DNA of 64,000 bases, from the NCBI RefSeq assembly GCF_002240415.1, contig NZ_CP020028.1, positions 3,683,501 through 3,747,500 of the forward strand. The letters are read 5' to 3'. Below, in pieces: positions 43,307-62,307 of this stretch (the stretch's first letter is position 1; each line of letters begins with the position of its first letter). The position numbers and the translations under genes were made by a program. Below the pieces are notes generated by a model. That model was not told the DNA's origin, made no database searches, and worked only from the letters and a program-made list of their open reading frames with translations. The stretch is from Paenibacillus kribbensis. GTDB lineage: Bacteria > Bacillota > Bacilli > Paenibacillales > Paenibacillaceae.

Positions 43307-43707
43307 AAAAGAATGTTGTCTACAAAGGCCAGACCAATCCCTGTTTCTACATTACCTCCAGGCCGTCCCGAGTCGGTGAACACTTCTGGCCCGGCCTACG
43401 TCACGGTATTGGGGCAGTCCACTCGGATGAGGGGGAGCTTCGGGAAAATGATCCCCACCAAATACTCAAGTGATGAGCAATACATTGCAAATTCCGATTA
43501 TGCAAAAAAGCTCCTGAATCGCCACAAGGACAAATTCAGGAGCTAGTATTTGACTGGCGGCCCACGGGACATCCTTTTACATGCAGAACCTCTACATGGC
43601 CAACCACCTGCGATTTAAAACCCGCCATGGACAATACGTGATCATCTTCCATTTTATACTGATCGCGTTGATCGGACCGTCGTGATCCAGCTCATGAGAA
43701 AGAGGAT
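43307..43707. other. Remnant sequence between GH30 and GH10 genes
   Basis: No intact gene. On the minus strand two open stretches look like protein remnants but are broken by stops: one reading AGPEVFTDSGRPGGNVETGI (around 43320-43400) and one reading EDDHVLSMAGFKSQVVGHVE (around 43560-43650). I cannot assign either. The region also contains the left copy of the 67-bp direct repeat (43479-43545). Confidence 0.4.
43479..43545. repeat. Left copy of a 67-bp direct repeat (possible island boundary)
   Basis: Aligns with 62139-62205 with no gaps and about 9 differences, including a 19-base identical start AATACATTGCAAATTCCGA. It contains the hairpin AGCTCCTGAAT / ATTCAGGAGCT, followed on the minus strand by TTTTTT, so it can also act as a terminator for the GH10 operon. 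Confidence 0.7.
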
Positions 43708-44730
43708 TCATCGATTCGCCAGCGCAGCAACACGCTCATAGGCTGGCTTCGGACGGTGCGATTGATCGAATAAAAAAGGCCAGTTCTTCCGGCCTCTGAC
43801 CGGAAAGCCGTCCAGCCAGGTATAATCGTCGGCAGCCCCCCAGAATGTGACTGCACGGATACAGTCGCGGTATTCCCGCAGCAGACGGAAAACCGCCTCG
43901 TAAAGCTCCGCTTGCCGTTCCAGCATTTCCTTCGAAGGATGAAGCAGATCGGTACGTCTGTCATCGAAGCGGAAGACCGACAGATCCAGTTCCGTCAGTT
44001 GGAGCTGAAGTCCCAGCTCTGCATATTTTTCAATGGCTGCGCGGATGTCGTCCAGGGAAGGATCGAACAAATTCCAATGCGCCTGGAGACCAACGCCATG
44101 AATCGGCACTCCCTGATCCAGCAGTGACCGGACCAGCCGGTGGATACGATCCCGCTTGTAAGGATGAGACTCATTATAGTCGTTGTAGAACAGCAGCGCC
44201 TTGGGATCTGCTTCATGCGCATATTCAAAAGCTTTGGCGATAAAATCAGGTCCGGCGATGTCCAGCCATTTCGACGGGCGAAGGAACGCCTCCTTGTCTG
44301 CCGCGTCGTCTGAGATGACCTCATTCGCCACATCCCAGCAGTATACAGTATCCTTGTACCGGCCGACCACCGTCCGGATATGCGAGCGGAGCCGTTCCAG
44401 CAGCAAGGTGCGATCCGCCGGGCCGCCTTGTCCGTTCTCAAACAGCCAATTCGGCGTTTGATTATGCCAGACCAGTGTGTGGCCGCGCATTGCCATCCGA
44501 TGCTCCTTGGCAAATGCAGCTAGCCGGTCAGCAGCCTCGAAGGTATACACCGCCTCCTCTGGATGCAAGCTTGAGAACTTCATTTCATTCTCCGCTGTAA
44601 TACTGTTAAAGTGGTGAGCAAGCAACGATTTCTGACTCTCAATGGTTACAGGATTGACCGCCGCTCCAATTTTGAAATCGTCTTTGTACAATTCTTTTAA
44701 TGAAGCTTCTTGCCGTGTCGACAAAATCAT
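43708..44730 (-). CDS. Intracellular GH10 endo-1,4-beta-xylanase
   Basis: 340 residues with no signal peptide. GH10 landmarks: TAENEMKFSSLHPEE, RGHTLVWHNQTPNWLF, acid/base Glu in WDVANEVISD and nucleophile Glu in LQLTELDLSVF, then VTFWGAADDYTWLDGFP. The lack of a signal peptide places it with cytoplasmic GH10 enzymes that cut imported xylo- or aldouronate oligosaccharides. The ATG at 44730 has AAGGAGG upstream. It is the last gene of the transporter-hydrolase cluster, 34 bases after the GH43 stop. Confidence 0.95.
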   Translation of the reverse strand: MILSTRQEASLKELYKDDFKIGAAVNPVTIESQKSLLAHHFNSITAENEMKFSSLHPEEAVYTFEAADRLAAFAKEHRMAMRGHTLVWHNQTPNWLFENGQGGPADRTLLLERLRSHIRTVVGRYKDTVYCWDVANEVISDDAADKEAFLRPSKWLDIAGPDFIAKAFEYAHEADPKALLFYNDYNESHPYKRDRIHRLVRSLLDQGVPIHGVGLQAHWNLFDPSLDDIRAAIEKYAELGLQLQLTELDLSVFRFDDRRTDLLHPSKEMLERQAELYEAVFRLLREYRDCIRAVTFWGAADDYTWLDGFPVRGRKNWPFLFDQSHRPKPAYERVAALANR

Positions 44731-44764
44731 CCTTCTCCTCCTTGTGCAGGCTACCGGCAAACAC

Positions 44765-46330
44765 TTACTGCTGCTTAGCCTGATACTCAAACCAATCGAA
44801 TCGCGCAGGCACCCCGCTTGGGTGGCCATTTCCTGTTGCATACAGACCAATGACTACCCCGGTGAAGCACATTTTATTCACAAAATCCTCTGGAGACAAC
44901 GCCCGTGCCGGACCTGCAGCTATACTGGACCAGTTCTCGTCATCCTCCGAATAGGACAGAGTATACTCATTCTCAGTCGCTTCGATTTTTAGCAAAAGTC
45001 GCTCCGCTTCTGTCTCAGCCTCATAGACGATCCGGGATTCTCCACGAATGGTCAGACGCGCCATGACCCGATTGCGGTCTCCAGAACGCAACACCCCAAT
45101 CTCATAATGGGCATCCTCATCCCGGCGTGCGCATAATCCAGCCTCTTCACCTTCAGCAGTTGGCGCAAACGACATGCAAGTGATGAAACTTGCCAGCGTA
45201 TGCTGCTGCCTTTTACCTGCAAAAGCGATCTGGCCGACATCCCCGAGTCCTGCCGCCTGTCCGCGCAGTGTCAAAGACCCGGGAGCTTCATCAAGCGAAT
45301 AACTGCCATCGGGCGGATTTCGCACAAAGATCCACTCGGGTCCGAGATGGTCTGCGGCAAAGTCGTCCCGGCCTTCGCCCGCAGCGGTGCCCGGCGCTTG
45401 GGGCGCCGCTGCGGGCAGACGCGCAACCGACATTTCCAGCTTGACACAGCCCTCGTTATTGTCAATATGCGGCCATTCGTCCTTCCAGATGACCGGAGCC
45501 AGAAAGGTTTCCCGACCGAGTACGCTGTAACCGTTCTCTGTCAACCGAACGCCGAGAAAAACAGACCACCAATTACCGTTTACATCTTCCACCAGATCAG
45601 CATGGCCCAAATACTGAATTGGATGATCAAGCCCCCGATGCGTCAGGATCGGCTCTGGATAACGCTCAAACGGACCATAAGGATTGTCGCTCCGTCCGAC
45701 GATCTCCCGGTGTTCCTTCGCTGTTCCCCCAGAGGCGGACATCATATAATACATTCCGTTAATCTTGTATAAATGAGGTCCTTCCGTCCATGGACCTCCA
45801 TCGCCGCGCCAGACCACCTGCGGCTCGGAAAGCGCTTCTCCAGTCGCAATATTGATTTCATACTGGATGACATGGGAGTCGTAGTCCGCTCCCTGCTGTG
45901 CGCTGACGTACACCTTGCCGTCATCGTCAAAAAACAGCGAAGGATCAATACCGCCGTATGGAACATGGATCGGCTCCGACCAAGGTCCGGCCGGAGCCGC
46001 CGCTGTAACATAGAAATTCCCGATCCCTCCTACATCGGTTGTGATCATGTAGAAGATGCCTTCAAAATAACGGAGTGACGGTGCATAAATGCCATCAGAG
46101 CTCTTGCGATCCGTCAGATCAAGCTGATTGGGCTGGTTCAGCACATGACCGATTTGTTCCCAGTGAATCAGATCCCGACTCTGGAAGATTGGAACGCCGG
46201 GAAAATATTCAAACGAACTGCAAATCAGATAAAAGTACTCTCCCGCCCTGACAATGCTTGGATCTGGATAAAAGCCGGGAAGTATGGGATTTGAGTAACG
46301 AATGGTTTGCGATACCAATTGATCATTCAT
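44765..46330 (-). CDS. GH43 beta-xylosidase (arabinofuranosidase possible)
   Basis: 521 residues, no signal peptide. A five-bladed propeller with the base Asp in NPILPGFYPDPSIVRAG, the pKa-modulating Asp in YGGIDPSLFFDDDG and the acid Glu in GPWTEGPHLYKING; LGHADLVEDVNGNWW and a C-terminal beta-sandwich (about 320-521) give the GH43_11/12-like two-domain layout. It removes xylose from imported xylooligosaccharides. Its ATG directly follows the stop of the permease gene (TAG-ATG). Confidence 0.92.
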   Translation of the reverse strand: MNDQLVSQTIRYSNPILPGFYPDPSIVRAGEYFYLICSSFEYFPGVPIFQSRDLIHWEQIGHVLNQPNQLDLTDRKSSDGIYAPSLRYFEGIFYMITTDVGGIGNFYVTAAAPAGPWSEPIHVPYGGIDPSLFFDDDGKVYVSAQQGADYDSHVIQYEINIATGEALSEPQVVWRGDGGPWTEGPHLYKINGMYYMMSASGGTAKEHREIVGRSDNPYGPFERYPEPILTHRGLDHPIQYLGHADLVEDVNGNWWSVFLGVRLTENGYSVLGRETFLAPVIWKDEWPHIDNNEGCVKLEMSVARLPAAAPQAPGTAAGEGRDDFAADHLGPEWIFVRNPPDGSYSLDEAPGSLTLRGQAAGLGDVGQIAFAGKRQQHTLASFITCMSFAPTAEGEEAGLCARRDEDAHYEIGVLRSGDRNRVMARLTIRGESRIVYEAETEAERLLLKIEATENEYTLSYSEDDENWSSIAAGPARALSPEDFVNKMCFTGVVIGLYATGNGHPSGVPARFDWFEYQAKQQ

Positions 46331-61864: not shown

Positions 61865-62138
61865 CTTTGAATTTCTAAACAGTAACCTCGCCTCTTCCGG
61901 ATTGTGTTTGCCTGCAATCTTTCAGATATCTCCTTGTTCATCCATAGTATGGCATATTTCTCCTTTGTCGTCTTTGTAGAAATTAAACATTCATAGGAAT
62001 AAAAAAAGATGAATTGGGGGCGCTGGAAAAGAAAAACCTGTATGATTTGTTCGAAGTCGTAAAAGGCGATCCGGTTGAGTTGGCTGTCATTCTGGCAGCT
62101 TTTTACGGGCTATAGCGAAGTGAAATTGTCGGGCTTAT
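61865..62138. other. Gap with a gene-end remnant
   Basis: A plus-strand stretch at 62011-62115 reads LEKKNLYDLFEVVKGDPVEL and then AVILAAFYGL-stop without a start or ribosome site. It looks like the end of a coding region cut off upstream. I do not recognise it. No other gene is visible. Confidence 0.4.
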
Positions 62139-62205
62139 AATACATTGCAAATTCCGAGCATGCAAAAAAACTCCTGAATCTCCACAAGAGAAAATTCAAG
62201 AGTTC
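62139..62205. repeat. Right copy of the 67-bp direct repeat, overlapping the tRNA-Leu terminator
   Basis: Matches 43479-43545 at an offset of exactly 18,660 bases. Contains AACTCCTGAAT / ATTCAAGAGTT, followed on the minus strand by seven T, which is the expected terminator of the tRNA-Leu gene 17 bases away. Confidence 0.7.
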
Positions 62206-62222
62206 ATTCATTGTTAAAGCGA

Positions 62223-62307
62223 TGCGGTCGAGAGGACTCGAACCTCCACGGGGGGTTAGCCCACACGGACCTGAACCGTGCGCGTCTGCCAATTCCGCCA
62301 CGACCGC
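62223..62307 (-). tRNA. tRNA-Leu, anticodon CAG
   Basis: 85 bases. The acceptor arm pairs GCGGTCG with CGACCGC, discriminator A. The anticodon arm is CACGG-TTCAGGT-CCGTG (anticodon CAG). A long variable arm, as in class II tRNAs, and the T arm GAGG-TTCGAGT-CCTC are present. No CCA is encoded. Confidence 0.97.

Follow-up and report, generated by a model that had tools for sequence, protein, structure and literature searches.

The described systems closest to the locus considered here are integrative elements at RNA genes, which we cite from excerpts of the papers concerned. Cis-mobilizable elements (CIMEs) and the tandem accretion of integrative and conjugative elements (ICEs) and integrative and mobilizable elements (IMEs) are defined in PMC5704250, which cites Pavlovic 2004 and Bellanger 2011. 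ICEBs1 of Bacillus subtilis targets the tRNA-Leu gene trnS-leu2 through a 17-bp attachment site (attB) within the tRNA (PMC3715440), and the ssrA islands of Dehalococcoides are catabolic islands lined up in tandem at a single RNA gene, some of which lack an integration module; in a related marine fosmid, the att repeat is embedded in the integrase gene (PMC3146451). Here we analyzed a stretch of 64,000 nucleotides of Paenibacillus kribbensis (RefSeq assembly GCF_002240415.1, contig NZ_CP020028.1, positions 3,683,501 to 3,747,500; hereafter the window, whose coordinates are used throughout), in which genes for xylan breakdown lie beside a tRNA-Leu(CAG) gene and between the two copies of a direct repeat. 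We think it likely that at least two elements inserted here one after the other, site-specifically at tRNA-Leu(CAG), and that the resulting genomic island decayed and later spread between Paenibacillus lineages. As such it is a further case of a familiar type, the tRNA-associated island that arises when integrative elements accrete in tandem.

The island resembles a CIME, as described in the excerpt of PMC5704250, in that it is decayed, has no integration or transfer genes and forms a tandem next to a tRNA 3' end, and in that related elements are live in kin. The integration genes are lost except for a 35-residue remnant with an in-frame stop, and the transfer genes appear to be lost as well, no conjugation domain having been found among the 17 island open reading frames (ORFs) scanned with Pfam (shorter ORFs lay outside this and the other Pfam scans of the island). 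The att site is intact on the tRNA side but, unlike in a CIME, the far att copy (copy 1 below) has no recognizable tRNA core, which makes present mobility doubtful. A conjugation module, as expected of an ICE, was likewise absent from the 17 ORFs scanned. In common with tRNA-associated islands, the segment borders a tRNA gene, carries an integrase remnant on the tRNA side and is absent from relatives with the same flanks; its direct repeat lacks the tRNA 3' end and stops 15 bases short of it, which we take to be a usual rather than a required feature. With ICEBs1 it shares an integrase-bearing element directed to a tRNA-Leu gene (PMC3715440, excerpt). The Dehalococcoides islands differ in using a serine recombinase and ssrA as the target (PMC3146451, excerpt). 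By title, no description of the island was found among the matches listed in the literature on Paenibacillus islands, tRNA-Leu, integrases, xylan, ICEs and terminators, and nothing matched Paenibacillus polymyxa combined with genomic island and tRNA-Leu.

Results

The repeat consists of an integrase gene end and a terminator

The features that define the island are as follows (G000 denotes this genome and G093 Paenibacillus terrae PIC167).
40985..62220, no strand: acquired segment, absent from this locus (locus A) of relatives, bounded by homology breakpoints in five relatives
43382..43441, + strand: 60-bp integrative-element fragment, 86-90% identical to DNA upstream of the int gene of three tRNA-Leu(CAA) elements
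43465..43545, - strand: copy 1, 3' tail of an older integrase gene plus terminator (57/67 with copy 2; G006 integrase end; hairpin)
62032..62136, + strand: tyrosine integrase remnant (tblastn with an intact 403-aa integrase)
62139..62205, - strand: copy 2, last integrase codons plus tRNA-Leu terminator (repeat match, comparison with G006, fold)
62221..62308, - strand: tRNA-Leu(CAG), the target gene (ARAGORN)

The repeat copies (43479-43545 and 62139-62205) lie in the same orientation at an offset of 18,660 bases and are identical at 57 of 67 positions, which bears out an earlier note on this DNA, made from the letters alone, except that it had counted about 9 differences rather than 10. The next-best ungapped 67-base match in the window reaches 32/67 on the same strand and 34/67 on the other. 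Across the whole genome (5.78 Mb), the repeat occurs at E < 1e-6 in three places, the window pair and 3,637,780, and the fourth-ranked match has an E of 0.118. With only three strong copies, the repeat is not the common dispersed sequence that the earlier note had named as fatal to its reading. Copy 2 lies directly downstream of tRNA-Leu(CAG), 15 bases away from it. Read on the tRNA strand, both copies form a hairpin followed by a T run (z of -4.4 and -3.7), with -20.2 kcal/mol for copy 1 and the hairpin of copy 2 at 62168-62205. A scan for terminator-like sites over 43,300-62,500 gave no excess (18 sites versus 18.8 in shuffles), so that the copy 2 hairpin rests on the fold calculation and not on the scan. 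In an alignment of 19 copies, in which one row (P. terrae) was poorly delimited and has gaps, 94.0% of the hairpin cells were paired versus 92.8% after shuffling (18 of 500 shuffles as high), the covariation score was equaled in 19/500 shuffles, and two pairs showed double changes (169/500). The alignment thus adds little independent evidence that the hairpin is functional.

The earlier note had seen no integrase inside the island. However, tblastn with the intact 403-aa integrase of G068 as a query detected a remnant at 62032-62136 (54% over 35 aa, one in-frame stop, E of 1e-6; runner-up in the window, E of 0.23), which stops 2 bases short of copy 2. In G006, which has larger integrase pieces in the same place, the sequence to the left of the tRNA-side copy encodes, piecewise, the latter half of a tyrosine recombinase and continues into the repeat. 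The G068 integrase is of the same family, and its gene ends 42 bases from tRNA-Leu(CAA), with a hairpin between them. The third genomic copy of the repeat also adjoins an integrase remnant (L016:9721-9780, E = 0.009). Because the integrase matches run into the repeat, its left half is the end of an integrase gene and its right half the terminator of the tRNA. ICEBs1 Int is also a tyrosine recombinase.

Matches to the repeat core number 31 and fall in 14 of the 75 genomes of the genus; an integrase remnant adjoins 11 of them, of which two belong to this genome and the other nine to eight relatives. This overlap is partly built in, as the core contains the integrase tail, yet the matches reach further into the gene. 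Among 20 loci with a match to the integrase tail, 17 hold a tRNA-Leu in the stretch examined and three are without any tRNA there. Phage records gave seven matches to the tail, at 36-64% identity. The view of the repeat as two related terminators, which the earlier note had offered as its weaker alternative, is thus right in that both copies are terminators, but they are scars of one integrase family and no dispersed repeat.

The acquired segment includes the GH30 gene

The left flank of the island is collinear up to 40,974-40,993 in G004, G014, G015, G032 and G034, and homology returns at the tRNA. From these breakpoints, the acquired part spans approximately 40,985-62,220 and takes in the GH30 gene. 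In G004, 0 of 42 island segments of 500 bp were matched. The island-free loci of these five relatives have different terminators at the tRNA, which indicates that the element brought its own terminator. The more distant G020, G021 and G035 are also island-free at this locus, their last flank match lying 0.5-0.7 kb from the tRNA. At the same locus, G063 carries an unrelated block of ~11 kb (L127:7604-18543) with pyridoxal phosphate-enzyme and amino-acid genes (aminotransferases, serine hydroxymethyltransferase and a PdxS-type protein), which adjoins an integrase remnant and core of the same kind.

The earlier note had placed the island at 43479-62307 as an insertion that duplicated the tRNA flank. 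Acquisition on the 3' side of tRNA-Leu and the existence of island-free relatives agree with this, but the island starts further left, with GH30 inside it, and the repeat is not duplicated host flank but integrase tail and element-borne terminator; the comparison with relatives that the note had proposed reveals island-free loci in five of them, but with neither a repeat copy nor GH30 there. Its impression of higher G+C was confirmed (0.503 for the stretch between the copies, as against 0.470 on its left side and 0.432 on its right), and G+C at third codon positions (GC3) is 0.562 in 11 island genes, GH30 included, compared with 0.503 in 22 flank genes (p = 0.007). The note was also right that GH30 is lower in G+C (0.433); with a GC3 of 0.389, the gene is below the flanks, yet inside the acquired segment.

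The island probably comprises two elements in tandem

Copy 1 is longer than copy 2 by 14 bases of integrase tail (43465-43478), which are identical to the integrase end of G006. Three tRNA-Leu(CAA) elements have a counterpart of the sequence at 43382-43441, to the left of copy 1, and in them it lies ~0.4-0.6 kb upstream of the int gene. This 60-bp motif has eight matches in 5 of the 75 genomes: four at copy 1 of the island, where G007 and P. terrae keep only the right part of the motif, and four that adjoin an integrase gene. In three of the latter (G068, G006 and one in G007), tRNA-Leu(CAA) lies beside the integrase, and the fourth stands in the middle of a series in G007. The extra integrase tail and the motif together suggest that copy 1 is the integrase end of an older element, and the likeness of the DNA left of copy 1 to sequence upstream of a tRNA-Leu(CAA) integrase makes two tandem elements likely. 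The left copy, as far as can be judged from the sequence, therefore looks like the tRNA-proximal end of the older element and not like the far end of the same element.

Related loci show such arrangements in fuller form. G007 has, at tRNA-Leu(CAA), three integrase ends of like orientation in 78 kb (a stretch read in part), with a repeat of the tRNA 3' half following the two inner ends and with metabolic genes between two att copies of this integrase family. In G068, coupling-protein, VirB4-like and VirB11-like domains are encoded upstream of the related integrase. At its other tRNA-Leu(CAG) locus, G034 has a 57-bp piece of a tRNA 3' end, together with a different terminator, at a distance of 2.6 kb from the tRNA. 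We infer from G007, G034 and other relatives that the crossover probably lies in the 3' half of the tRNA, the locus studied here having no far copy.

Elsewhere in this genome, an integrase-like tail adjoins a second tRNA-Leu(CAG), which is identical to the first over 88 bases. The third repeat copy with its integrase remnant lies ~9 kb from this tRNA, and redox-enzyme genes are found between them (L016:9721-9831 and ~18530-18665). This locus may also be a tandem.

The island has moved between lineages

We compared identity at fourfold-degenerate sites between this genome and G006, G007, G093 and G004 for 22 flank and 11 island genes, using a rank test that treats genes as independent. Identity to G006 was 0.625 in the flanks (21/22 genes) and 0.871 in the island (11/11); to G007, 0.604 (21/22) and 0.817 (11/11); and to G093, 0.606 (20/22) and 0.817 (11/11), with p < 1e-5 in each case. 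GH30 itself has values of 0.882, 0.792 and 0.791 to G006, G007 and G093, respectively. G004, the closest of the four in the flanks (0.794, 22/22), has none of the 11 island genes. An island more similar than its flanks, together with its absence from the relative closest in the flanks, points to horizontal movement. Against G006 the island is a mosaic, with 92.4% identity in 43,546-53,200 and 96.5% in 53,201-62,138, and this mosaic and the raised identity of adjacent genes (see Discussion) indicate that the last transfer was probably by homologous recombination.

The 579-aa SGNH esterase of the island has a full-length match in 4 of 75 genomes, which are the four island carriers, and a partial match in 51 others. 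Among 11 named loci with SGNH genes, that of P. terrae (L109) keeps the esterase, the AraC regulator, the two-component genes and the binding protein in island order, and in the other 10 the esterase is present but the operon is not. GH2-CBM6 relatives were seen in L115, GH10 relatives in L119 and an AraC relative in L114, and several loci gave weak matches to regulators or permeases. No tRNA was found in the stretches examined at the 11 loci, P. terrae included.

The cargo is a decaying set of xylan genes

The island carries the following genes.
41569..43242, + strand: GH30 glucuronoarabinoxylanase XynC with CBM6 (NCBIfam XynC equivalog, 821.6 bits versus a cut-off of 650; Pfam)
43548..43703, - strand: GH43 gene remnant, 88% to L050:9616-9777, within the 334-aa GH43 ORF of G006
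43708..44850, - strand: GH10 xylanase (Pfam GH10)
44765..46330, - strand: GH43 beta-xylosidase-type enzyme with a GH43_C2 domain (Pfam)
46331..48279, - strand: two ABC sugar permeases, two ORFs (Pfam BPD_transp_1)
48358..50052, - strand: probable sugar-binding lipoprotein of the ABC importer (position)
50123..55095, - strand: response regulator, sensor kinase and response regulator, with AraC-type outputs (Pfam)
55392..55772, - strand: ORF over a GH115 alpha-glucuronidase remnant (alignment to L049, the 960-aa GH115 ORF of G006)
56015..56806, + strand: AraC-family regulator with a cupin domain (Pfam)
56820..58559, - strand: SGNH/GDSL esterase, 579 aa (Pfam Lipase_GDSL_2; PDB 6hfz by sequence, E of 2.4e-33)
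58656..61864, - strand: broken GH2-CBM6 gene in four ORFs (Pfam pieces; one 1140-aa ORF in G006)

The probable lipoprotein had no match in the Pfam scan and a weak NCBIfam match to an ABC substrate-binding protein (E of 1.9e-5, far below the cut-off). A transposon or insertion-sequence origin of the island was rejected, no transposase domain having been found in the 17 ORFs scanned. Paenibacillus sp. JDR-2 reportedly uses aldouronates and xylan through an ABC importer encoded with GH10 and other xylan genes; the importer and GH10 are shared gene types, whereas here GH115 and one GH43 are largely deleted.

By comparison with G006, the island is evidently decaying, in that GH115, GH43 and GH2 are longer there and deleted or broken here. 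In G006, a 334-aa GH43 and a 557-aa GH43-CBM6 flank copy 1, one on each side, and there are ORFs for a 960-aa GH115 alpha-glucuronidase and a 1140-aa GH2-CBM6 protein. In the window, the GH43 counterpart is a 156-bp remnant (43548-43703), 2.4 kb of GH115 are deleted at 55572/55573 (the alignment to L049 jumps from 17421 to 15038) and the GH2-CBM6 gene is in pieces. G006 shares the junction sequence to the left of copy 1, from which it follows that the block was already decayed when it passed between these two lineages. In G007 (L122 ~1850-1920) and P. terrae (L124 ~1740-1790), the tRNA-Leu gene itself is gone at this locus, and the scar terminator is joined straight to the tRNA 5' flank.

Elsewhere in the window, ~3.6 kb at 29400-33017 had no blastn match in relatives that are collinear on both sides (L061, L065, L068, L123 and L125); this is possibly a second variable region.

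Discussion

Integrase remnants at the scars, terminators that the elements brought, island-free loci, a signal of horizontal movement and decay can all be read directly from the DNA. We propose that elements with a tyrosine integrase directed to tRNA-Leu would have entered the 3' half of the tRNA and that each would have supplied both a tRNA 3' end and a terminator of its own, the integrase gene stopping right at the latter. An older element (~40,985-43,545) would have left XynC and the backbone fragment, and a younger one (~43,546-62,205) the xylan operon. The integrase and any transfer genes would then have been lost, leaving two scars of integrase tail and terminator as the direct repeat, and the decayed block may later have passed among related Paenibacillus, either through homologous recombination between flanks or as a passenger of a live element. 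We infer both the order of insertion, with the XynC side as the older, and the route of the later spread.

Several observations weigh against this account. The island-free sites are not strictly empty but hold 0.5-1.7 kb of other DNA, and a search with 20- to 40-mers over 40,001-62,000 found no tRNA 3' fragment at copy 1 or the left border, which leaves the classic att pair incomplete. The integrase piece is short, and as a 37-aa sequence it had no Pfam match of its own. Further, the GC3 difference is modest, the island sits at one and the same locus in all four carriers found (G000, G006, G007 and G093), and its immediate neighbors, too, are more similar to G006 than the flanks as a whole (fabV, 0.762, and GNAT, 0.750, compared with the flank mean of 0.625).

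The last two of these points, with the mosaic identity to G006 and the lack of a conjugation domain in the 17 ORFs scanned, would suit a xylan block that arrived chiefly through homologous recombination of the flanks, with integrase scars that are older and unrelated to its arrival. We regard this as unlikely: the island ends coincide with the integrase scars, G063 has another metabolic block with the same kind of integrase remnant at the same site, and G007 has metabolic genes enclosed by two att copies of this integrase family. The sharing of the island by the four carriers in the same place might also be taken to mean that it was ancestral in the group and lost from the island-free relatives. 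This is very improbable, given that its fourfold identity exceeds that of the flanks by 0.21-0.25 for three carriers and that G004, closest in the flanks, does not have it.

Insertion of one element (43,479-62,205) on a single occasion, duplicating the tRNA flank and leaving GH30 as old host DNA, would explain why the repeat pair frames the xylan operon exactly and why G+C and GC3 of GH30 are below those of the rest of the island. Yet the island-free relatives have neither GH30 nor the repeat at the tRNA, the fourfold identity of GH30 is at the island level, and an integrase tail and element DNA are found left of copy 1, all of which render such a history improbable. That the copies are merely related terminators or a dispersed repeat with no bearing on insertion has next to no probability: their hairpins are indeed terminator-like, but two of the three strong copies in 5.78 Mb are beside integrase remnants, and the similarity passes beyond the hairpin into integrase codons.

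Overall, repeated insertion followed by decay and spread accounts best, in our judgment, for what is seen at this tRNA. Given that the tRNA 3' half comes with the element, as does a terminator that the convergent integrase gene uses too, we further suggest, tentatively and with some doubt, that each insertion by this integrase family replaces the terminator of the target tRNA and that the scars record the successive insertions; the output of tRNA-Leu(CAG) may change as a result, and loss of the gene, as in P. terrae, would be possible. The locus shows the gain, sharing and erosion of biotechnologically useful xylan breakdown at one Paenibacillus tRNA site. It also indicates that a repeat beside a tRNA may be the element-borne tail of an integrase gene with its terminator, so that island borders set by the repeat alone can mislead. 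Should the swapping of terminators affect tRNA output, a test across natural strains could make use of the scars.

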